57,908 nt of DNA, taken from positions 1 through 57,908 of the IMG/VR virus record IMGVR_UViG_3300023208_000397; one strand, 5' to 3'. Source of the DNA: a virus. Below, one piece after another: positions 6,420-38,222 of the stretch. The first letter of the stretch is position 1. The number at the start of each line of letters is the position of its first letter. The notes below the pieces were generated by a model that worked only from the letters and a program-made list of their open reading frames with translations, was not told the DNA's origin and did no database searches. The translations under genes were made by a program, and so were the position numbers.

Positions 6420-8219
6420 TCAGGCCGCGGCCTTGAGCTGCTGCACGACACCGCCCTGCAGCCAGTGGCCGCTCACGGTCGGGCGCAGGTCGGCCGGGAT
6501 GCTCTTGAGGGTGCCGAAGAGCAGAGCGCTCCCGATCTCACCCTCGGCGGCCAGGATGTCCAGCCAGGCGAAGAGGTCCTCGCGCCCCTTGAGGTCCAGG
6601 ACGTCGATGCGATCCAGCAGGAGCACCTTCAGGCCCGAGAGGTAGCTGATGGCCTCGGCCAGCATGGCGTCGGCGCGCCACTTCTCGGACTCGCTGAGCA
6701 GCCGGTAGGGGCGGCCGTCGGTGGTGGTGACCGCCATATCGGCGTCCAGCTTGACCACCGGCCACTCGGCATCACGGGCGGACTGCTCCAGTCGCTGGTT
6801 GAACGGCGTCAGCGCCTCGGACAGCAGCTCGCCGGGGATGCCGTCCGGGGCCAGGGCCTGGGCGATCAGGTCCCAGGCCACGACGTCCGCGTGATGGCCG
6901 GCCGCGGCCTCGGTCTTCTGCTGTGCCACCTCGGCCGCAGCCTTCTGGATGCGCAGCGTCTCCAGCTTCTTGAGCAGCTCCCCGCGCGCCGCCTTCAACT
7001 TGTCCGACTCGGCGCGGGCGCTGGCCAGTGCCGCGCCGTCGAACTCGGCCTTCAGCTGCTCGCTGATCTCCGCGGCTTCGTCCCGGGCCCGCAGGGCCGC
7101 CGCGAGGTCGCGCTGGCTGTTCGCGACCGCGGTGTCCATCAGGTCGCGGCTGGCGCGCACCTCGGGCAGCCGGGCGGCGGCGGCCGGATCGCCGACGGCG
7201 CCGATGCGGCCGTGCTCGCGCTCGTAGGCGTTCAGCGCGGCCTCGGCGTCACATTCCTGCGCCGGCGGTTCCTGGCTCACCGGAGTCTGGGCCAGCGGCA
7301 GCAGGTAGGCGACGGCCGCGGCCAGGTCATGGATGAGGCCATCGCGCTGGCTCTGGCCGGCTGCAGCCGTGACCTCAGCCAGCTGCCGCTCGGCTTCCGC
7401 GAGGTTCTTGCGGTCCGCCGCCAGCTTCTTCTCGATGCGGTCGACCTTGCCGGCCAGCTCGACCAGGGCCGGCAGCTTGCCCGCGATCTCGGCGCGGCGC
7501 TGCTCCTGGGCGGCCAGCCGGCCGATGGTCTGCTGCCACTGCTCCTGGGCGTGCTCCAGGTGCTGCAGCTCGGTGCTGAGCGTCTTGAAGGCCTCGGCAT
7601 CGTAGGCGGGCACCGGGGCCGCCCAGGTCTTGGCCTTCTCGCTGCCGTAGGCCTCGCCCGTGACTTGGCGCCAGGCGCCCTTGGCCTCGGTGGCCTTGCG
7701 CTTGGCCTCGTCGCAGGCAGCATCGAAGCCGGCTTTCAGCAGGGGGCCCACGCGCAGGGCCTTCTTCTCGTCGACGCCGCGCTTAGCCAGCCGCTCGATC
7801 ACCTCCTCGGCCTTGATGCCGATGCCCAGGAGCCCGAAGAGAAAGCTGCGGCGGCCGTTGCCGTCCAGAGCGGCAAAGCGGTGCGGCTCCAGCACGTAGG
7901 GCAGGGCCCGGTGCGGGACATAGACATCCTGGGCCGGGGTCTTGCCAGACGGCACCAGGGCGTAGGGCGTCAGGCCCCCCTCCAGCTCCACCTCGACGGC
8001 GCCGTTCTTGGCCCCCTCGTGGACCAGGGCGGCCAGGTCCTTCTTCAGGGTCACGCCCCGGGCGGCCACGTCGCCGCAGAGGGCCATGCGCACGGCCTCG
8101 GCGAGGCTGCTCTTGCCGTTGCCGTTGGGGCCGGCGAACAGGGTGATCGGGGTGTTGAGCGCCACCGAGGCGGCGCGGATGCCCAGCACGTTCTGGGCGT
8201 CGATGTGCGTGATCTTCAT
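6420..8219 (-). CDS. SMC/SbcC-like AAA ATPase
   Basis: 599 residues. Walker A GPNGNGKS is at residues 30-37, long central helices rich in A/E/K/Q form a coiled coil interrupted near the middle, then an ABC-type signature LSESEKWRADAML (509-521) and Walker B LLLDRIDVLD (533-542). This is the RecF/SbcC layout in a short phage form without a separate nuclease domain. The likely partner is the neighbouring DnaQ-like exonuclease or the PD-(D/E)XK exonuclease. The Walker B aspartate is followed by RID rather than the usual EP, so hydrolysis may be atypical. Role: DNA-end processing in recombination, or defence counteraction (inference). Confidence 0.88.
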   Translation of the reverse strand: MKITHIDAQNVLGIRAASVALNTPITLFAGPNGNGKSSLAEAVRMALCGDVAARGVTLKKDLAALVHEGAKNGAVEVELEGGLTPYALVPSGKTPAQDVYVPHRALPYVLEPHRFAALDGNGRRSFLFGLLGIGIKAEEVIERLAKRGVDEKKALRVGPLLKAGFDAACDEAKRKATEAKGAWRQVTGEAYGSEKAKTWAAPVPAYDAEAFKTLSTELQHLEHAQEQWQQTIGRLAAQEQRRAEIAGKLPALVELAGKVDRIEKKLAADRKNLAEAERQLAEVTAAAGQSQRDGLIHDLAAAVAYLLPLAQTPVSQEPPAQECDAEAALNAYEREHGRIGAVGDPAAAARLPEVRASRDLMDTAVANSQRDLAAALRARDEAAEISEQLKAEFDGAALASARAESDKLKAARGELLKKLETLRIQKAAAEVAQQKTEAAAGHHADVVAWDLIAQALAPDGIPGELLSEALTPFNQRLEQSARDAEWPVVKLDADMAVTTTDGRPYRLLSESEKWRADAMLAEAISYLSGLKVLLLDRIDVLDLKGREDLFAWLDILAAEGEIGSALLFGTLKSIPADLRPTVSGHWLQGGVVQQLKAAA

Positions 8220-8252
8220 GGCCTTCCTTTGCCTGGGGATGGTGGCGGGCGA

Positions 8253-8558
8253 TCAGCCGCGGTGCGCGCGGCGGTTCTTAGCCTGGTTGAAACGCTTGCG
8301 CGCCATGCGTCGGTCGTGGGCCACGCTCCAGCCCTTAGCCGGGTAGCGGCTGCGTGTGGCCGAGTAGCCGCCATAGATGGCGCGCTCGATTGCGCTGCGC
8401 GATTCGACCTTGGCGGGCGATGAACCCTTGTCAGCCTGCTGGCCGTTGCCACTTTTGGCGATGTGGGTCGAACCGGTGCTGGCGCCGAAGCCGGCAGAGA
8501 GGCCGGAGAAGGCCAGGGCCGCGGCTGCGGCGCTTAGAAAGACTGAACGTCCGCGCAT
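8253..8558 (-). CDS. Small basic protein with N-terminal hydrophobic segment
   Basis: 101 residues. The start at 8558 is favoured by AGGAG six bases upstream. An N-terminal RGR and a stretch of alanines, leucine and glycine (VFLSAAAAALAFSGLSAGFG) look like a signal or membrane anchor; the rest is basic and ends with RMARKRFNQAKNRRAHRG. No family recognised. It lies between the RecT and SMC-like genes in the same direction, so it is co-transcribed with the recombination genes. Confidence 0.6.
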   Translation of the reverse strand: MRGRSVFLSAAAAALAFSGLSAGFGASTGSTHIAKSGNGQQADKGSSPAKVESRSAIERAIYGGYSATRSRYPAKGWSVAHDRRMARKRFNQAKNRRAHRG

Positions 8559-8666
8559 GTGCGCTCCTAGTGGTGGGGTTGGTGGTGGGCGGCGCACTTC
8601 GTCGGTGCTGCCAACGCCGGGCCGAAACCGGCGCCCGTTACGCGCTACGGCGCGCCGCCCGTTGAC

Positions 8667-9842
8667 TTACTCGATGGACGAGCCGCTGGCGCTGCGTGCG
8701 CGGCGGGCGCCGGCCTGGGGCTGCTGGAGCTCGGCCCGGCGCTTCTCGTAGGCGGCCTGGATCTGGCCGGCCAGCTCCTGGCTGATGTCCGCCGGCACCT
8801 CGTCGGTGAGGATGTCCAGGCCTTCCTGGCTGGTCACGGTGGCCATGCGGGCCAGGAGGTTGGCGGCATCGAAGGGCTGTGCCTCGCTCTCCTGCTGGTC
8901 GTGCTGCTGGATCTCACCGGTGGCCGGGTCCACCGAGCCGGCGGGCGTGGCGGTTTCGGAGGCCTCGACAACCTCGGCCATCGGCGCCGGGCCGGCGGGC
9001 CCGCGGCGCAGCTCGGCAGCCGGCACAGGGGTCGCGGTGCCATCGGCTGCGACATCGAAGGTCTGCAGCGGAGCATCCTGCAGCTCCTCGGTGGTCCGGC
9101 CCATGCCCATCACGATGTCCGGGGCGTGGATGCGGCCAAAGAAGGCGCCGCTGCGGTACTGCAGCATCTGGAACTTCATCTCCGTCTGCCACTTGCTGCC
9201 CGGCTTGCTGTACCAGCCTTCCTCCACCGCAAGCTTCATGGACACCGGCGAGGACTCGATCACAGGCAGGCCGGCGTCACGCGCCTGCTGCAGGGTGTAG
9301 ACGCCCTTGGGCAGCACGAAGCCGGCCGGAAGCGTCCAGGCGATGCAGACGTGATCGTCCAGCTCGACCATCTTGTCCTCGAAGTCGTAGCCGCCCTTGT
9401 TCTTGTTCCAGCCGAGCTTCTCGCGGTACTTCGCCTTGATCATGCCGCGCGACTTCATGTCGAAGCGCAGGGGCTGGAAGCGGCCCGAGGCGTTGATAGC
9501 GGCGATCACGAACTGGGCGGACCAGGACAGCTTGCCCTCGATGATGTTGGCCTGCTGCATGACCGCCGTGATGCTCATGCCCACGGCGCGGGCGGTTTCG
9601 ATGGCGACCAGGCAGTTGCCCATGGCCGAGGGGTTCTCGATCCACTGTCCGCCGTCGCGATCCTTCTTGAACACCATCGCCCGAAATTGCGTCGGGACGG
9701 CGTCGCTGGTCGCGAAGGCCTTGGCGATGCGCTGGGCCAGCTCGAAGCCGCGGAGGCTGAACATATCGATCTTGAGGTCGGCCTGCTGGGCCAGGGCGCC
9801 GCCCTGCTGCTGCAGCGTCGCGACGGGAAGAGGGGCGTTCAT
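8667..9842 (-). CDS. recT: RecT-family single-strand annealing protein
   Basis: 391 residues. Typical RecT features are visible: MGNCLVAIETARAVGMSITAVMQQ, IIEGKLSWSAQFVIAAINASGRF and, after a variable loop, KWQTEMKFQMLQYRSGAFFGRI. RecT-type proteins bind resected single strands and anneal or invade homologous DNA. The C-terminal 120 residues are an acidic, alanine/glutamine-rich tail, possibly for partner binding. The upstream gene encodes the exonuclease expected to supply its substrate. Spacing to that gene is 24 bases, suggesting one operon. Confidence 0.92.
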   Translation of the reverse strand: MNAPLPVATLQQQGGALAQQADLKIDMFSLRGFELAQRIAKAFATSDAVPTQFRAMVFKKDRDGGQWIENPSAMGNCLVAIETARAVGMSITAVMQQANIIEGKLSWSAQFVIAAINASGRFQPLRFDMKSRGMIKAKYREKLGWNKNKGGYDFEDKMVELDDHVCIAWTLPAGFVLPKGVYTLQQARDAGLPVIESSPVSMKLAVEEGWYSKPGSKWQTEMKFQMLQYRSGAFFGRIHAPDIVMGMGRTTEELQDAPLQTFDVAADGTATPVPAAELRRGPAGPAPMAEVVEASETATPAGSVDPATGEIQQHDQQESEAQPFDAANLLARMATVTSQEGLDILTDEVPADISQELAGQIQAAYEKRRAELQQPQAGARRARSASGSSIE

Positions 9843-12064: not shown

Positions 12065-12520
12065 ATGTCCTTGCTGATCTGTCTTGTGGTCGGCATCGTT
12101 GACGGCGACACCATCAACGTGCGCTGCCCAGATGCGGATCAGACCTCGGTCAGGATCGAGAAGATCGATGCACCTGAGAAGGGGCAGGCGTGGGGCGAGC
12201 GCAGTCGCCAGGCCTTGGCCATGTTGTGCCACCGCCAGTCCGCGGAAATAAGGCCATCCGGCCATGATCGATACGGCCGCATGCTGGCCAGCGTCTCGTG
12301 CGGTGGCGAAGACGCCGGCCGTGCGCAGGTCGCAGCGGGGCTCGCGTGGGCCTATCGCGCATACCGGCCAGGGCGTGAGCTGCTGGAGTTGGAAGAGGCT
12401 GCCCGTGCCGCGCGCCGCGGACTATGGGGCTCTTCCGATCCGATGCCACCATGGGAATGGCGGCTCAACGCTCGCGCTTCGCGGCCTGTGCCTGCAGGAT
12501 CAGCTCCAGCGCCTCATTAG
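12065..12520 (+). CDS. Staphylococcal nuclease-like (thermonuclease) protein
   Basis: 151 residues. The SNase fold motifs are visible: GIVDGDTINVRC (metal-binding aspartate), VRIEKIDAPE (catalytic arginine, aspartate and glutamate), SGHDRYGRMLA (second catalytic arginine) and a final helix ending ARRGLWG. Ca2+-dependent cleavage of DNA/RNA is the family activity. There is no cleavable signal peptide, only a short hydrophobic start, so it may act in the cytoplasm. The last 56 bases overlap an opposite-strand ORF. A role in host DNA breakdown or competition is inference. Confidence 0.85.
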   Translation: MSLLICLVVGIVDGDTINVRCPDADQTSVRIEKIDAPEKGQAWGERSRQALAMLCHRQSAEIRPSGHDRYGRMLASVSCGGEDAGRAQVAAGLAWAYRAYRPGRELLELEEAARAARRGLWGSSDPMPPWEWRLNARASRPVPAGSAPAPH

Positions 12521-12677
12521 GCACGGGGCCGCCGATGATGATGATGTTGCCGCCGCCAATCTGGCCGACGATCTGGCTTGCCGCATCGCCCTGGCTTGCC
12601 TGACTGGCTGGCTGTTCGTGCGGCGGGATATTCACAGTTTTGAGCAGGCGCTTCAGCGCTGCTGACGTGTCGGTCAT
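12465..12677 (-). CDS. Small hypothetical protein on the opposite strand
   Basis: 70 residues: an N-terminal helix (MTDTSAALKRLLKTV), a glutamine/serine linker, a GGGNIIIIGG strand-turn and a C-terminal helix EALELILQAQAAKR. GGAG nine bases upstream of the ATG supports translation. Its 3' end overlaps the nuclease gene on the other strand. No family known. Confidence 0.5.
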   Translation of the reverse strand: MTDTSAALKRLLKTVNIPPHEQPASQASQGDAASQIVGQIGGGNIIIIGGPVPNEALELILQAQAAKRER

Positions 12678-12788: not shown

Positions 12789-13526
12789 ATGCCCCTCGCC
12801 ACAACTGTAAGAACCCCGCAACGAACAACACCTGACCTGGCGCTGGCTTGCGAAGCGATAGCCAGATTCCCGGCAGCGACAAGCCTTCCTGACCTCAGCG
12901 AGTGCGCTACGCTGATGAGCGAAGCTCTAGGGTTGCCGCTGCACATCATGCTGCACTTCAGCGGCGCGGCTGCGCGCCTGCGCAATGCTGTCCACAACGG
13001 GGCCGTAGGCCTGCCGCTCAGCGAGCTGGTGTGCGATCCGCGCGTGGTGGATGCTCTGGGGTCACCGATACCGAGGTTCGTGCCGGATGGCTTAGACCCC
13101 TTCGTGAGCGGGCCCTGCATCGTCGTCGCAGGGCGCTACTCGAACACGAGTTGTGTGGTGATCTTGGGAGGTCGGGCCGATCTGACCCAGGATGAAGCGG
13201 TGGCACTTGCGGGTGCGGCCGTGATGGCGGCCAACGGCGCGGCCACAGCGATGCGCAGCATGGTCGCCGCGGATTGCCCGCTAACCGTGCGTGAGCTGGA
13301 GTGCCTCTCGTTCGTCGCGGCCGGGGCCGGCTACAGAGAGGTCGGGCAGGAGCTGGGTATCAGCCCCCGCACCGTGGAAAAGCATGTCGAGCGGTGCCGA
13401 CAGCGGCTCGGCGTGGACACCAGCCTTGCAGCTGCATTGGCTGCAGTGCGAGCCGGCTGGATCAGCGACGCCGAGCTGGAGGACATTGAGCTTAGAAGCC
13501 GCCGCCGCCAGTACGGGGCAGGCTGA
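12789..13526 (+). CDS. LuxR-family transcriptional regulator
   Basis: 245 residues. The C-terminal 60 are a clear LuxR/FixJ HTH: PLTVRELECLSFVAAG, then the recognition unit ELGISPRTVEKHVERCRQRLG and a final helix AALAAVRAGWI. The first 150 residues form a sensor-like domain (SLPDLSECATLMSEALGLPLH... CDPRVVDAL) of GAF or autoinducer-binding type that I cannot assign firmly. No phosphoacceptor receiver domain is seen, so ligand sensing is more likely than phosphorelay. It lies in the phage switch region, convergent with a second LuxR-like gene. Target promoters unknown. Confidence 0.82.
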   Translation: MPLATTVRTPQRTTPDLALACEAIARFPAATSLPDLSECATLMSEALGLPLHIMLHFSGAAARLRNAVHNGAVGLPLSELVCDPRVVDALGSPIPRFVPDGLDPFVSGPCIVVAGRYSNTSCVVILGGRADLTQDEAVALAGAAVMAANGAATAMRSMVAADCPLTVRELECLSFVAAGAGYREVGQELGISPRTVEKHVERCRQRLGVDTSLAAALAAVRAGWISDAELEDIELRSRRRQYGAG

Positions 13527-13557
13527 ACAGTTCGGCGAGTGCGGCGAAGATCGACAT
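13492..13557 (-). CDS. Possible 21-codon peptide gene with sequestered ribosome site
   Basis: The ORF starts MSIFAALAELFSLP and ends in a glycine run and phenylalanine: a short hydrophobic helix plus a flexible tail. AGGAG lies six bases before its ATG, better than most genes nearby. That site is the 3' arm of an inverted repeat (13562-13601), so folding would hide it. It lies downstream of the leftward LuxR-like gene and overlaps the 3' end of the rightward LuxR gene. A small toxin, leader or signalling peptide are all possible; none is shown. Confidence 0.4.
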   Translation of the reverse strand: MSIFAALAELFSLPRTGGGGF

Positions 13558-13561
13558 GAAA

Positions 13562-13601
13562 GGCTCCTGAAAAGGTTGTCTGGTCAACACGACCAGGAGC
13601 C
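13562..13601 (-). promoter_or_regulatory. Nested hairpins covering the small ORF's ribosome site
   Basis: On the minus strand GGCTCCTG (13601-13594) pairs perfectly with CAGGAGCC (13569-13562), which contains the Shine-Dalgarno of the 21-codon ORF. Inside, CTGGTC and GACCAG form a second six-pair stem with loop GTGTT. The two stems share three bases, so they compete or must trim, as in translational switches. Confidence 0.5.
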
Positions 13602-13617: not shown

Positions 13618-13642
13618 CAGGGTTGCGAAACTGTCAACCCTG
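13618..13642. terminator. Hairpin between convergent LuxR-type genes
   Basis: CAGGGTTG (13618-13625) and CAACCCTG (13635-13642) form a perfect 8-bp stem with a 9-base loop, 20 bases after the stop of the leftward LuxR-like gene. There is no T-run on either strand, so termination is only a positional guess; it could also be an operator. Confidence 0.35.
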
Positions 13643-13662
13643 TCAGATTTACGTACATCGCC

Positions 13663-14379
13663 TCATGGGTGTATTAACCCACCGTCGACGGCCTTCAGCA
13701 CCAGGTCGGCGCTGGTGCGGGCGCCCATCTTGCGGGCCGCGCTGGCCAGCGCGGGGCTGGCGCCCAATTCGCTGATGCTCATGAGCCGCCCCTTGCGGCG
13801 CAGGACCGTGGCGCCAGCGGTCTGGACCGCGGCCCGCTCGGATCTGTTCAGCTGGTCCGTGGGGTTTGCGCCTGCGCGCATGGCCAGGATGCGCAGCGCG
13901 CCCGCCTGGGCGTGCATGGCAAGCATCTGCAGGTTGGCCTGCAGCAAAAACAGGTCCGGGCCGGAGGGGAGGGCGTCGGGGCGGTCCACACCGAGCATGA
14001 ATGCCTCGGCGTGGGTGGGGGCGTGTATCGAGACGGCCATGCCGGCGCGGAAGCCGAACGCCGCCTGGGCGTCCCACAAGTCCGAGGCACCCGCTCGCGC
14101 ATAGGTGCCTTGGTCATACTGGGCGTGCCCGGGCCGCGCCATCAACTGGGTGAGCAGCGGGTCTCGCAGGCCGTCGCCAGCGCTGTACATGGCGTCCTCA
14201 TAGCCGGCCGGTGGATTGCCGAAGGCATGCAGGCCGGAGGGGCGCTCTAGAGGGCCACGCAGCAGCACAGCAGAGGCCAGGCCAAAGCCCATGTCCTGTG
14301 CGAGCGCTACCGTCCGCGCGGTCAGCGCGTCGACGGTGTCGGCGGCGCTCAGCTCAAGCAGGGCCTGGTATCGAAGCAT
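13663..14379 (-). CDS. LuxR-like protein with autoinducer-binding-type domain
   Basis: 238 residues. Residues 25-165 resemble the autoinducer-binding domain of LuxR/TraR proteins. At the six usual key positions I see Y60 (for W57 of TraR), M64 (Y61), D73 (D70), P74 (P71), Y88 (W85) and G113 (near G113). The acyl-HLA contact aromatics are thus changed but DP is kept, as in LuxR solos that bind other ligands. The C-terminus has LuxR HTH length (LNRSERAAVQTAG ... VLKAVDGGLI), but the usual recognition helix with TV..H is replaced by SPALASAARKM, so DNA binding may be altered. It starts 33 bases after the repressor gene and is probably co-transcribed with it. Confidence 0.72.
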   Translation of the reverse strand: MLRYQALLELSAADTVDALTARTVALAQDMGFGLASAVLLRGPLERPSGLHAFGNPPAGYEDAMYSAGDGLRDPLLTQLMARPGHAQYDQGTYARAGASDLWDAQAAFGFRAGMAVSIHAPTHAEAFMLGVDRPDALPSGPDLFLLQANLQMLAMHAQAGALRILAMRAGANPTDQLNRSERAAVQTAGATVLRRKGRLMSISELGASPALASAARKMGARTSADLVLKAVDGGLIHP

Positions 14380-14412
14380 CGCTGGATTCTGCGCGGCCGG
14401 AGGGTTTGGTGT

Positions 14413-14934
14413 CTATCGCCCCAGCGGGGCGGTACGCCGTCTCGGCTGCTTCGGTACGGCTGATGCCACTGAGGCGCGCTCTGCGAGCGCGTCATTGACC
14501 CTTGAGAGAAAGCCGGCAATCACCGCCCGCTCCTTGACCGGCTCCTGCTCGGCCATGGCAAAGACAGCGTTGTGCCAATCGCGCAGGCGCTGCAGTTCCT
14601 CGCGCTCTGGGTCTATCAAGGGGGAAGGCGCAGCACCGATGCTGGGGGCCATCTCGGTGATCGCCTGGGCGATCTTGTCAATGATGGCGTTCCGATTGGC
14701 CTCGACTGCGGCACCCTCACCGAACAGCAGATCGCTCTCTGTGCATCCCAGTGCCTTCGCTACATAGCCCAGGCGTGTTCTTTTCGGCGCTGAGCCACCG
14801 TTCTCCCATTGCTGGACGGTTTGCCAGGCCAGGGGTTTCTTCGCCCCCTCCAGCTCGCTGACCTTCGCGGCCAGGGTTGCATGTGACCAGCCCTTCGCCT
14901 CTCGGCGCCGCTTGATCTGCTCGTGAATCGACAT
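14413..14934 (-). CDS. XRE-family prophage repressor (CI-like)
   Basis: 173 residues. The N-terminal HTH_XRE is clear: SIHEQIKRRREAKGWSHATL, a WQTVQQWENG recognition helix, then LGYVAKALGCTESDLLFG. There is no C-terminal S24 peptidase domain; the rest is helical and probably oligomerising, so RecA-induced self-cleavage is not expected and induction must differ from lambda. The ATG at 14934 has no Shine-Dalgarno site and lies about a dozen bases from a possible -10, so a leaderless mRNA is plausible. Divergent from the Cro-like gene; the LuxR-like gene follows. Confidence 0.82.
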   Translation of the reverse strand: MSIHEQIKRRREAKGWSHATLAAKVSELEGAKKPLAWQTVQQWENGGSAPKRTRLGYVAKALGCTESDLLFGEGAAVEANRNAIIDKIAQAITEMAPSIGAAPSPLIDPEREELQRLRDWHNAVFAMAEQEPVKERAVIAGFLSRVNDALAERASVASAVPKQPRRRTAPLGR

Positions 14935-14946
14935 GGGCACAAGTTT

Positions 14947-15009
14947 TTCATGTACCCGTGCATCCTCAAATGCAAGAACATCTAGCGATACTAGAAAATC
15001 TGGTATAGC
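14947..15009. promoter_or_regulatory. Repressor/Cro divergent control region
   Basis: The 83-base gap between the repressor and Cro-like genes is AT-rich compared with its surroundings. On the minus strand TTGCAT (14975-14970) could be the repressor -35 with a weak -10 17 bases further. On the plus strand TATAGC (15004-15009) could be the Cro -10, nine bases before its ATG. CTAG tetramers at 14982-14985 and 14991-14994 are operator candidates; the CTAG-N4-TCTTGCATT block equals that at the early promoter. Confidence 0.55.
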
Positions 15010-15017
15010 ATTGGGCG

Positions 15018-15278
15018 ATGGACCGCAGCACCCACTACCCATCCGAGGCGCACCGCGCGATTGCCATCCTGGGCGGGCCTGTTCAGGCAGCAAGGCTGCT
15101 GGATGTGCCGAACCACCGCTATCAGACGGTGCAGTCATGGCTCAAGACGCGGGTCCCCGCTGAGTACTGCCCGGTGATCGAGAAGCTGACTCGCGAGCTC
15201 GGCGATGAAGTGCGGTGCGAGTCCATCCGCTCCGACGTCGAGTGGGGGGTTCTGCGCAGCACGGCGAGGGCCTCCTGA
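15018..15278 (+). CDS. YdaS-like Cro regulator
   Basis: 86 residues. HRAIAILGGPVQAARLLDV and YQTVQSWLKTRVPAEYCPVIEKLT form the YdaS/Cro-type helix-turn-helix with the VPAEYCP motif common in lambdoid Cro-like proteins. It is the first rightward gene after the switch and divergent from the repressor, as expected for Cro. No strong ribosome site precedes the ATG; a -10-like TATAGC nine bases upstream suggests a leaderless transcript. Confidence 0.85.
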   Translation: MDRSTHYPSEAHRAIAILGGPVQAARLLDVPNHRYQTVQSWLKTRVPAEYCPVIEKLTRELGDEVRCESIRSDVEWGVLRSTARAS

Positions 15279-17093: not shown

Positions 17094-19606
17094 GTGACCC
17101 AACCCGACTACACCACCTTCCTGCGGCGCAAGATCCGCATGGCCAGCTTCAAGGGCTTCGAGGTGAAGCCCGAGGCCGTGCACGAGAAGCTGTTCAGCCA
17201 CCAGCGCGACATCGTGCGCTGGGCCGTGCTGGGTGGCAACCGCGCGATCTTTGCCAGCTCGGCCTGGGCAAGTCGGTGATGCAGATCGAGTGGCTGCGCC
17301 AGATCCTCCTGCAGGTGGAGGAGGGCCCGGGCCTGATCATCTGCCCGCTGGGCGTGCGCCAAGAGCTGATCCGCGACGCGGCCATGCTCGGCGTAGATCT
17401 GCGGTTCATCCGCACCGCCGCGGAGATGACCCCGGACCACCGCTTCTACGTCACGAACTACGAGTCCGTGCGCGACGGGAAGCTGGACCCGAACCTGTTC
17501 ATCGCGGTCAGTTTGGACGAGGCGAGCGTCCTGCGCAGCTTCGGCAGCAAGACCTACCAGGAGTTTCTGCCGCTCTTCGAGCGCGTGCGCTTCAAGCTGG
17601 TGAACACCGCCACGCCCAGCCCCAACCGCTTCAAGGAGCTGATCCACTACGCCGGCTTCCTCGGCGTGATGGACACGGGCCAGGCCCTGACCCGCTTCTT
17701 CCAGCGCGACAGCGAAAAGGCCGGGAATCTCACGCTCTACCCGCATAAGGAGCAGGAATTCTGGATGTGGGTCAGCAGCTGGGCCGTCTTCATCCAGAAG
17801 CCCAGCGACCTGGGCTACAGCGACGAGGGCTATGACCTGCCGCCGATGGAGGTCCGGTACCACGAGGTGCCCACCGACTACAGCCTGGCCGGCGAAGACC
17901 GCGATGGCCAGGTGCTGATGTTCCAGGACCCGGCCCTGGGCCTGTCCGCTGCTGCCGCGGAGAAGCGGGAGAGCATGCCGGCGCGCGTGGCCAAGGTGGC
18001 CGAGCTGGTCAACGCATCGCCCGATGACCACTTCGTCATCTGGCACGACCTGGAGGCCGAGCGGCATGCCATCCAGGCGGCTATCCCGGATGCAGTGAGC
18101 GTCTGGGGCACCCAGGACCTGACCGAGCGCGAAGACCTGATCGTCGGGTTCGGCAATGGCGCATTCCGCCTGCTCAGCACCAAGCCGGTGATCGCCGGCA
18201 GCGGCTGCAACTTCCAGCGGCACTGCCACCGGGAGATCTTCGCGGGCATTGGGTTCAAGTTCAACGACTTCATCCAGGCGGTCCACCGCGTGCAGCGCTT
18301 CCAGCAGCGCCACCCGGTGGTGATCGACATCGTCTACAGCGAGGCGGAGCGCGAGGTCCTGCGCACGCTGCAGCAGAAATGGGCCCAGCACGAGGAGATG
18401 GTGGCCAACATGACCGAGATCATCAAGAAGTACGGCCTCAACCAGCTGGCCATGGCCGAGACCCTGGCGCGCAGCATCGGCGTGAAGCGCATCGAGGTGA
18501 AAGGCGACCTCTTCACGGTCGCGAACAACGACTGTGTGGAGGAGGCGCGGCTGCAGGGCGAGGGCTCGGTGGACCTGATCGTCACCAGCATCCCGTTCGC
18601 CAACCACTACGAGTACAGCCCGAGCTACAACGACTTCGGCCACACCGAGGACAACGAGCATTTCTGGGCGCAGATGGATTTCCTGACGCCCGAGCTGCTG
18701 CGCATCCTGAAGCCGGGCCGGATCTACGCCTGCCACGTAAAGGACAGGATCCTCTTCGGCAACGTCACGGGGGCCGGCGCGCCCACGGTCAGCCCTTTCC
18801 ATTGCGAGGCCATCATGCACGGCCGCCGCCATGGCTTCGATTACATGGGGATGATCACCGTCGTCACCGATGTGGTGCGGGAGAACAACCAGACCTATCG
18901 CCTGAGCTGGACCGAGCAGTGCAAGGACGGCACGAAGATGGGTGTCGGCTCGCCCGAGTACATCATCCTCTTCCGCAAGCCCCAGACCGACCGGTCCAAG
19001 GGCTACGCCGATGAGCGGGTGGTGAAGTCCAAGGATGACTACACCCGGGCCCGCTGGCAGGTGGATGCGCATGCGTTCTGGCGCAGTAGCGGCAACCGGC
19101 AGCTGACGGCCGAGGAGCTGGCGAGCCTGGGACCCGACAAGCTGGCCAGCCTGTTCACCCAGTACAGCCTGGCCAACGTCTACGACTACGAGTTCCACAT
19201 CCGCATCGGCGAGGAGCTGGAGGCCCGTGGCGCGCTGCCGGCCACTTTCATGAGCCTGGCCCCGGGCAGCCTGCACCCGGAGGTCTGGCACGACGTGACC
19301 CGCATGCTCACCCTCAACAGCGAGCAGAGCAAGCGTGCGGTCGAGAAGCACGTCTGCCCGCTGCAGTTCGACATCGTGGACCGTCTGATCGAGCGCTACA
19401 GCAACAAGGGCGAGCTGGTCTACGACCCGTTCTGTGGCCTGGGCACCGTGCCCTATCGCGCGATCCTGAAGGGCCGCCGCGGTGGCGGCTCCGAGCTGAA
19501 CCCCGGCTACTTCATGGACCAGGTGCACTACCTGAAGTCCGCGGAGCAGCAGGTCTCCATGCCCAGCCTGTTCGACACGCTGGAAGAAGAGGCGGAGGCG
19601 GCCTGA
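17094..19606 (+). CDS. SNF2-like helicase fused to DNA methyltransferase, frameshifted
   Basis: From the GTG at 17094 (GGGAGG six bases upstream) the frame encodes the expected N-terminus (FLRRKIRMASFKGFEV, EKLFSHQRDIVRW) up to RAIFAS and then stops at 17279. The rest continues one frame over from LGLGKSVMQ. Inserting one base near 17259 restores FGLGKS, the Walker A. Downstream are helicase motifs (SLDEAS; QAVHRVQRFQQ) and a beta-class methyltransferase with TSIPF near 18590 preceding DPFCGLGT near 19430. About 837 residues if repaired. The methyltransferase half could still be made from an internal start such as the ATG at 17279. Sequencing error or true inactivation cannot be told apart here. 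Confidence 0.85.
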
Positions 19607-37232: not shown

Positions 37233-38222
37233 ATGAGCCTCACACACTCCGAGCTTGAAGAACTGCTGCGCCTGGCCCTCACCGCCCTGCGCGGCCAGGC
37301 CCTGGCGGCCGGCGTGCCCCCAGCGGCGCCGGCCAGCCTACCAGCGCAAACCAGCGCGGGCCCCACGCTCGCCGAATGGCTGGTGACCTACCGCAAGGTC
37401 ATCGCCGAGCGCGGCTACAACGAGCAGACCCTGAAGAACCGCGCGGCCAGCCTCAAGCACATTGAGGGCGCCTGGGGCGCGCTGGCCCTGCGGGCTAATT
37501 GTCCCGTGGACATCGCCAGCCGCATCAAGCGCTGGACGCCGCACACCGCCGGCCGGATCCTGGGCGAGCTGCGCGATGTGTTCGTGGAGGCCATCGCCCA
37601 CGGCGAGGCCGAGACCAGCCCGGCCGCGCACGTCAAGGCGCCTCGCGCGCCGGGCCTGCGCAAGCGCCTGACGCTGGATACCTGGCAGAGCATGCTCACC
37701 CTGGCCCAGGCCGGCCCGCAGGCCTGGGTGCCCGCCATGCTGCTGCTGGCCCTGCACACCGGCCAGCGCCGGGCCGACCTGGCCAAGATGCGCTTCGATG
37801 ATGTGGTGGACGGCTGCCTGCGCGTCGAGCAGCAGAAGAAGGCCCGCAAGCCCATCGGCGCCCGGGTGGCCATCCCGCTGCATCTTCGGCTGCAGGCCAC
37901 CGGCCTGAGTCTGGGTGAGGTCATCGAGCTGTGCCGCGGCATCGGCGCCCCGGGCGACTACCTGCTGCGCAAGCGCGGTGGTGGCCGCATCGAGGAGAGC
38001 TCGCTCTCGGCGCGCTTCCGGGAGCACATCGTGGCCGTGGCCGGGCAGGGCGCTTACCAGCGCTTTGAGTGGCCCAGCCTACACGAGGTGCGCAGCCTCA
38101 GCGCCCGCACCTACATCGCCAGGCTTCCATGCTGTGCTCGTGTTGAAGCGGTATCGGAGGTAAGCCAAGGTGAGCGCGACCATGACCCAGGTCTTCCACG
38201 GAGGTATCCCAAGATCCTGTAG
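37233..38222 (+). CDS. int: Tyrosine integrase, C-terminus lost
   Basis: 329 residues. An arm/core-binding N-terminus (WLVTYRKVIAERGYNEQTLK), then box I LLALHTGQRRADLAKMRF with the catalytic arginine, a K region and box II SLHEVRSLSART (H-x-x-R). After ART (residue 293, near 38111) the expected LLGH...T..Y block with the nucleophilic tyrosine is absent, replaced by an unrelated basic tail to the stop at 38222. The tail is antisense to the leftward membrane gene. It is therefore probably inactive in strand cleavage. Confidence 0.85.
   Translation: MSLTHSELEELLRLALTALRGQALAAGVPPAAPASLPAQTSAGPTLAEWLVTYRKVIAERGYNEQTLKNRAASLKHIEGAWGALALRANCPVDIASRIKRWTPHTAGRILGELRDVFVEAIAHGEAETSPAAHVKAPRAPGLRKRLTLDTWQSMLTLAQAGPQAWVPAMLLLALHTGQRRADLAKMRFDDVVDGCLRVEQQKKARKPIGARVAIPLHLRLQATGLSLGEVIELCRGIGAPGDYLLRKRGGGRIEESSLSARFREHIVAVAGQGAYQRFEWPSLHEVRSLSARTYIARLPCCARVEAVSEVSQGERDHDPGLPRRYPKIL

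Follow-up and report, generated by a model that had tools for sequence, protein, structure and literature searches.

A LuxR-type receptor gene, a candidate lux box and a conserved short peptide gene beside the repressor of a temperate podovirus

The viral sequence IMGVR_UViG_3300023208_000397, analysed here over its full 57,908 nucleotides (57.9 kb, hereafter the window), carries packaging and head genes of the Bcep22-like podovirus type as well as integrase and recombination genes, and it is a temperate podovirus. In its immunity region, the gene of an XRE repressor is followed on the same strand, after a 33-base gap, by the gene of a LuxR-type protein, here called receptor A; behind it lie a lux-box-like element, a very short open reading frame (ORF) and a second, convergent LuxR-type gene, that of receptor B. 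The original prediction, made on this DNA from its letters, placed the repressor gene and receptor A exactly, and overlooked the gene of receptor B and the peptide gene lying between A and B. The module formed by A, B and the XRE gene recurs beside phage genes in three relatives: Burkholderiales bacterium C2 (L002), genome G472 (L119) and an IMG/VR contig (L139). The features of the window are the following, HTH standing for helix-turn-helix:

15018-15278, plus strand: YdaS/Cro-like HTH gene, 86 aa (PF15943, E 7e-14)
14935-15017, no strand: divergent switch region between the XRE repressor and the Cro-like gene (from the sequence; role proposed from the layout)
14413-14934, minus strand: XRE (C1/DicA-type) repressor, 173 aa (Pfam HTH_3, E 7.8e-7; PHROG repressors down to 2.6e-9)
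13663-14379, minus strand: receptor A, 238 aa, with a LuxR-type autoinducer-binding domain and an altered C-terminal HTH (PF03472; structure model)
13631-13655, minus strand: conserved non-coding element TACGTAAATCTGACAGGGTTGACAG, containing the lux-box core CTG-N10-CAG (13631-13646)
13562-13601, minus strand: predicted RNA hairpin in which the peptide gene's Shine-Dalgarno sequence (AGGAG, 13564-13568) is paired (RNA fold z-scores)
13492-13557, minus strand: predicted peptide gene, MSIFAALAELFSLPRTGGGGF, 21 aa (homologous ORFs with Shine-Dalgarno sequences in L002, L119 and L139)
12789-13526, plus strand: receptor B, a second LuxR-type protein, 245 aa, with a divergent sensor domain (GerE; structure model)
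12465-12677, minus strand: small ORF of 70 aa, divergent from gene B (43% homolog at the same place in L002)

The YdaS/Cro-like gene is oriented opposite to xre, and the divergent switch region holds a palindrome, CTAG-N5-CTAG (14982-14994). To judge from the genes, xre and receptor A form one operon. The HTH of the repressor is common to many phage repressors, and the protein lacks an S24/LexA (self-cleaving) peptidase domain. The HTHs of the XRE proteins differ from one module to another; the C-terminal tail is conserved between the window and L002, though their HTHs are swapped.

As for receptor A, the claim that it has an autoinducer-binding domain is borne out by the profile search that had been proposed for it: PF03472 (Autoind_bind) matches residues 17-158 with E 9.4e-12 and 45 bits (cut-off 23). 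Structure prediction agrees, and the AlphaFold model (predicted local distance difference test, pLDDT, 86) has a LuxR fold that matches the ligand-binding domains of LasR, CepR2, QscR and TraR over ∼160 residues (VIA Z 17-20). The residues listed by the original prediction, Y60, M64, D73, P74, Y88 and G113, are present exactly as claimed; among the TraR residues that contact acyl-homoserine lactones (AHLs), i.e., W57, Y61, D70 and W85, D70 alone is kept, the others being Y, M and Y. Is this a peculiarity of the phage? Of the 70 homologs used for the residue counts, 68 have Y or F and 2 have W at the position of W57, the lactone-contacting Trp; at that of W85, 43 have W and 27 have Y. D70 is retained in 67 of them, and all 70 have P71 and G113. 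On these counts, the pocket changes belong to the wider homolog family and are not phage-specific. The ligand of receptor A is probably not an AHL. A LuxI gene (PF00765) was not found in the window.

The recognition helix, described earlier as unusual, is so indeed: no Pfam match to the GerE domain is obtained in receptor A, one HTH helix is not formed in the model (residues 198-202, pLDDT <50), and the HTH is likewise altered in L002 and L119, being near-canonical in L139. Receptor B has an intact GerE HTH (E 6.8e-11), and its model (pLDDT 79) matches QscR/RhlR/SdiA over the full length (Foldseek E 7e-8); it has homologs in L002, L119 and L139.

The gene order xre, A and then convergent B is the same in the window, L002 and L119, with an additional small ORF between xre and A in L119; in L139, it is B that shares the strand of xre, A being convergent, and ∼1 kb is inserted between A and the peptide gene. 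A phage annealing protein and an exonuclease are encoded near the module in L002, and a terminase, a portal protein and a primase in L119. Receptor A shows 57% identity with intact frames across three divergent prophages, its C-terminal domain being roughly as conserved as the sensor domain. The module is known from these four phage copies, of which L002 and L119 came from genome scans and L139 from a three-sequence alignment of receptor A. No matches were obtained by single-sequence receptor searches of INPHARED phages and IMG/VR, nor by a two-sequence receptor A alignment or a small-ORF alignment against IMG/VR; for receptor B, a two-sequence alignment reached no more than an HTH-level match (L015), and no homolog of receptor A, B or the small ORF occurs in 59 viral loci with repressor relatives. 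A scan of IMG/VR for the operator DNA returned, besides L139, three chance matches within unrelated coding sequence, and genus-level searches for further phage copies took in only 3 and 2 genomes. Directly after the XRE gene, small cysteine-rich (zinc-ribbon-like) proteins are encoded in L119 (9308-9544) and L139 (10434-10670).

The DNA between the stops of A and B is strongly conserved as well and holds, in this order on A's strand, TACGTRAATCTGACAGGRTTGACAG, ATAGTGG, the hairpin, the Shine-Dalgarno sequence and the ORF. The lux-box-like sequence at 13631-13646 lies ∼17 bp past the receptor A stop. The element around it is identical in L119, differs by 2 changes in L002 and retains its left part in L139, and it is the sole perfect match to CTGNCA-N4-TGNCAG in the whole window; it is a candidate lux-box-type operator. 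To judge from the distances, ATAGTG may serve as a -10 box, which would put the lux box at about -43. The predicted hairpin covers the ribosome-binding region in all four (pro)phages (fold z -2.9, -5.9, -3.4 and -3.9); its evidence is these individual folds, because RNAalifold detects little covariation in the cassette.

The short ORFs regarded here as peptide genes are predictions. The one in the window is unannotated, lies ∼105 nt past the receptor A stop and overlaps the 3' end of gene B in antisense; the peptides read MSIFAALAELFSLPRTGGGGF in the window, MSFISILSFIALALPRTGGGW in L002, MSFFAAFLEVFSLPRTGGGW in L119 and MLSFLLQLLGIADAPQSQDFPRTGGGA in L139. Across the four, the codons of the C-terminal PRTGGG vary at third positions only, i.e., synonymously. 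Does this conservation come from the opposite strand, where the C-terminus of B is encoded? This explanation was rejected, since over the same stretch of L139 a different antisense frame is used for gene B; the other frame, together with the third-position-only changes, assigns the conservation to the peptide.

The phage module has a chromosomal background. A receptor A homolog (E <1e-20) is present in 98 of the 401 genomes of the family of genome G001, and the chromosomal homologs, from Burkholderiales, share the layout of LuxR gene, lux box and peptide gene. Independently, searching with a sequence model of the phage cassette hit DNA ∼100 bp past one such homolog (G407). With the motif P[RK]xG near the C-terminus, fixed beforehand from the phage peptides, an ORF is found downstream of 24/66 chromosomal homologs against 11/1315 ends of control ORFs (Fisher p 6e-26, without correction for relatedness). 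A wider definition, set after the data had been seen, gives a peptide ORF in 51/70 loci at a median of 120 nt downstream, 25 of them short and 26 long. The short peptides (16-28 aa) have ends such as LPRxGG and FPRTGW. The long precursors carry a double-glycine-type leader in 25 of 26 cases, and their mature tails, of 7 to 25 residues and some in tandem (SPKGTWASPKGTW), nearly all end in W (LPRVGGW, TDTPNKTW, VDGPNKYW); the tail ends of the chromosomal peptides are PxxxW or [LF]PRxGGW. Genes for HlyD and a C39-peptidase ABC exporter follow 21 of the 22 long-precursor loci checked, and the lone locus without them (L200, the locus of L172) encodes a precursor without the double-glycine leader; no such exporter occurs at any short-peptide or phage locus checked.

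The putative operator recurs along with the peptide. A lux-box core is present in 50/51 gaps between LuxR and peptide genes (shuffles: mean 5, maximum 12), and within 110 nt of the LuxR stop in 53/70 homologous loci against 8.5% of controls; its chromosomal form, CTGTAAGAGTTGACAGTTAC, closely resembles the phage element. LuxI (PF00765) is absent from 29 of the 32 records searched, with partial weak matches in the remaining 3. Among the divergent neighbours of the chromosomal receptors, 12/26 match DUF4902 (RsaM family), and the RsaM family has been described as always adjoining luxI or luxR genes. In the tree, the four phage receptors are one clade (100/99) within the chromosomal clade, sister to the receptors with short peptides. 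The operons with a luxR-type gene, a lux box, a double-glycine-leader peptide, hlyD and a C39 ABC exporter, seen in Burkholderiales at L105 (8481-12978) and L189-L208, are apparently an undescribed peptide-signalling or bacteriocin family.

What, then, is the signal? The xre-luxR-luxI modules of Phaeobacter/Roseobacter prophages have a counter-oriented hth gene; in Phaeobacter the operon acts as the lysogeny switch, and lysogeny is promoted by its autoinducer (PMC13345283, preprint 2026). The order of counter-oriented hth, xre and luxR is that of the window, where the operon is a predicted one; the Phaeobacter module, however, has luxI and a homoserine lactone (HSL), whereas the window has a peptide gene behind a lux box, a further LuxR-type gene in convergent orientation and an altered HTH in receptor A. 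The layout matches, but the peptide gene takes the place of luxI, and the peptide as signal is the economical reading. We give about an even chance to the proposal that the phage controls lysogeny in an arbitrium-like manner, by means of a LuxR-type receptor and a ribosomal peptide pheromone of its own, both from an undescribed Burkholderiales family of LuxR, lux box, peptide and, in part, C39 exporter. That the module was captured from a Burkholderiales chromosome into the phage immunity region, xre-luxR-peptide replacing xre-luxR-luxI, is a proposition for which the scales likewise hang level. The earlier suggestion of a small-molecule signal feeding the lysis-lysogeny decision holds in one part: a ligand-sensing LuxR-type protein is encoded in the repressor operon and, since the layout recurs in three other (pro)phages, the link with that decision is plausible. 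The words "small-molecule signal" probably need correcting, as the place of luxI is held by a ribosomal peptide gene, preceded by a lux box and beside the receptor, an arrangement which the relatives share, often with an exporter.

The mechanism might run as follows. The repressor operon would supply receptor A together with the XRE repressor. At the lux box, a dimer of the LuxR type would act so that the peptide is expressed; this would most likely involve B, perhaps with A or XRE. With its intact HTH, B is the better candidate for binding DNA, and A would be the sensor or a partner. The peptide would then accumulate, and a processed C-terminal piece such as LPRTGGGGF would bind receptor A, which in its liganded form would tip the balance between repressor and Cro, probably towards lysogeny, the direction known from the phage xre-luxR-luxI modules. 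The sequences themselves show the genes and their clustering in four (pro)phages, the operator, the conserved ORF and the chromosomal family with its exporters; we infer the processing of the peptide, its exit from the cell, its role as ligand of A, the identity of the operator-binding protein and the direction of the effect. The open-access literature searched yielded no case of a LuxR receptor paired with a ribosomal peptide of its own; the newness rests on this pairing of receptor and peptide, and if the peptide is not the ligand, the module is a variant of the phage xre-luxR modules.

Several points weigh against such signalling. Receptor A is without a standard HTH in three of the four (pro)phages, which clouds its output. 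An export leader is missing from the phage peptides, nor did the phage turn out to encode an exporter, and the signal may therefore be confined to the cell. The homologous loci do not count as independent cases, and the definition of some motifs was post hoc; finally, the chromosomal peptides could be LuxR-controlled bacteriocins rather than ligands.

Other systems offer partial parallels. In arbitrium, the AimR-AimP(-AimX) system of Bacillus phages, a phage receptor of the RRNPP/TPR fold is encoded close to the lysogeny switch, next to a gene for a short peptide; lysogeny is favoured once the mature peptide has bound the receptor. The window similarly has a peptide precursor gene adjoining a receptor near such a switch, but the receptor has the LuxR fold, the phage is of Burkholderiales type and no secretion signal is seen in the peptide. 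The LuxR solos PipR and OryR do not respond to AHLs, as is probable for receptor A, and PipR responds to a tripeptide; they sense plant or other exogenous compounds via an importer, and the parts of the sources used here mention no cognate peptide gene (PMC4981722, PMC10134790). The RsaM-linked LuxR solos (PMC10710839) resemble the chromosomal relatives in having a divergent DUF4902/rsaM gene beside the LuxR gene; the part of that source used here mentions no peptide gene, and the phage copies are without a DUF4902 neighbour.

A different output is conceivable, namely that B, with or without A or XRE, activates the 21-aa peptide or the 70-aa ORF, and that the product inactivates the repressor directly and leads to lysis. 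In the Aeromonas phages ARM81ld and Apop, an xre-luxR pair senses host C4-HSL and triggers lysis via a small ORF, or smORF (PMC10432266, PMC6456758); the window shares with these transcription factor-smORF systems the phage xre-luxR operon and a small ORF nearby. Gene B points away from a small ORF that has a conserved counterpart in L002, an arrangement also present in the modules described by Silpe et al. 2023; the 70-aa ORF found no family match in profile searches and is possibly an antirepressor-type small protein. The repressor, with no self-cleaving domain and with a C-terminal tail that outlasts the swapping of its HTH, would suit such a partner. In Aeromonas the counter-oriented smORF inactivates a separate cI, whereas in the window the XRE protein is at the cI position and the peptide lies downstream on the receptor strand. 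Against this reading, the peptide family occurs in chromosomes with no adjacent repressor, so antirepression is not its ancestral role. Although it can be combined with peptide signalling, this alternative is unlikely, if a serious contender.

Could the phage simply eavesdrop, with A (or B) sensing a small molecule made by the host and adjusting the lysis decision, as the Aeromonas LuxR protein does with C4-HSL? The PF03472 fold, the retained D73, P74 and G113 and the very existence of phage xre-luxR operons that sense host HSL speak for it, but the loss of the lactone-contacting Trp in 68/70 family members, the general lack of luxI in the records searched and the conserved, lux-box-bearing peptide gene adjoining the receptor make it distinctly doubtful.

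It is improbable that the LuxR-type protein controls the peptide as a small toxin or antimicrobial, with the hairpin as a translational brake. Its short hydrophobic N-terminus and the sequestered ribosome-binding site would fit, and C39 exporters also export bacteriocins; however, the N-terminal half is free to vary while the C-terminal PRxGG(W), common to the leaderless and the exported forms, is kept, and the adjacency of lux box and receptor is near-universal. That receptor A is a functionless, decaying captured gene is scarcely credible, for although its HTH is degenerate in three copies, the frames are intact at 57% identity, the C-terminal domain is conserved about like the sensor, and the operator is identical in two phages.

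Should the pairing of LuxR-type receptor and peptide be true, LuxR-type receptors, long seen as detectors of AHLs or plant compounds, would include a large branch with gene-encoded peptides. Such "LuxR solos" would be no solos, and one of their lineages would have been taken up by temperate phages and built into the lysogeny switch, giving phages of Gram-negative bacteria a peptide system parallel to arbitrium. Even if the peptide is not the ligand, a conserved operator and peptide gene in phage immunity regions demands explanation.

Some further observations concern the surrounding genes. A thermonuclease-like endonuclease gene (12065-12520) adjoins the immunity region of the window. The helicase/methylase gene at 17094-19606 seems split into two overlapping frames, its relative in L139 (13489-16107) being one continuous ORF, and the tyrosine integrase at 37233-38222 has an atypical, possibly broken C-terminus. 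In L002, the phage single-strand annealing gene (7107-9377) carries an apparent intein-type insertion that splits the annealing domain.
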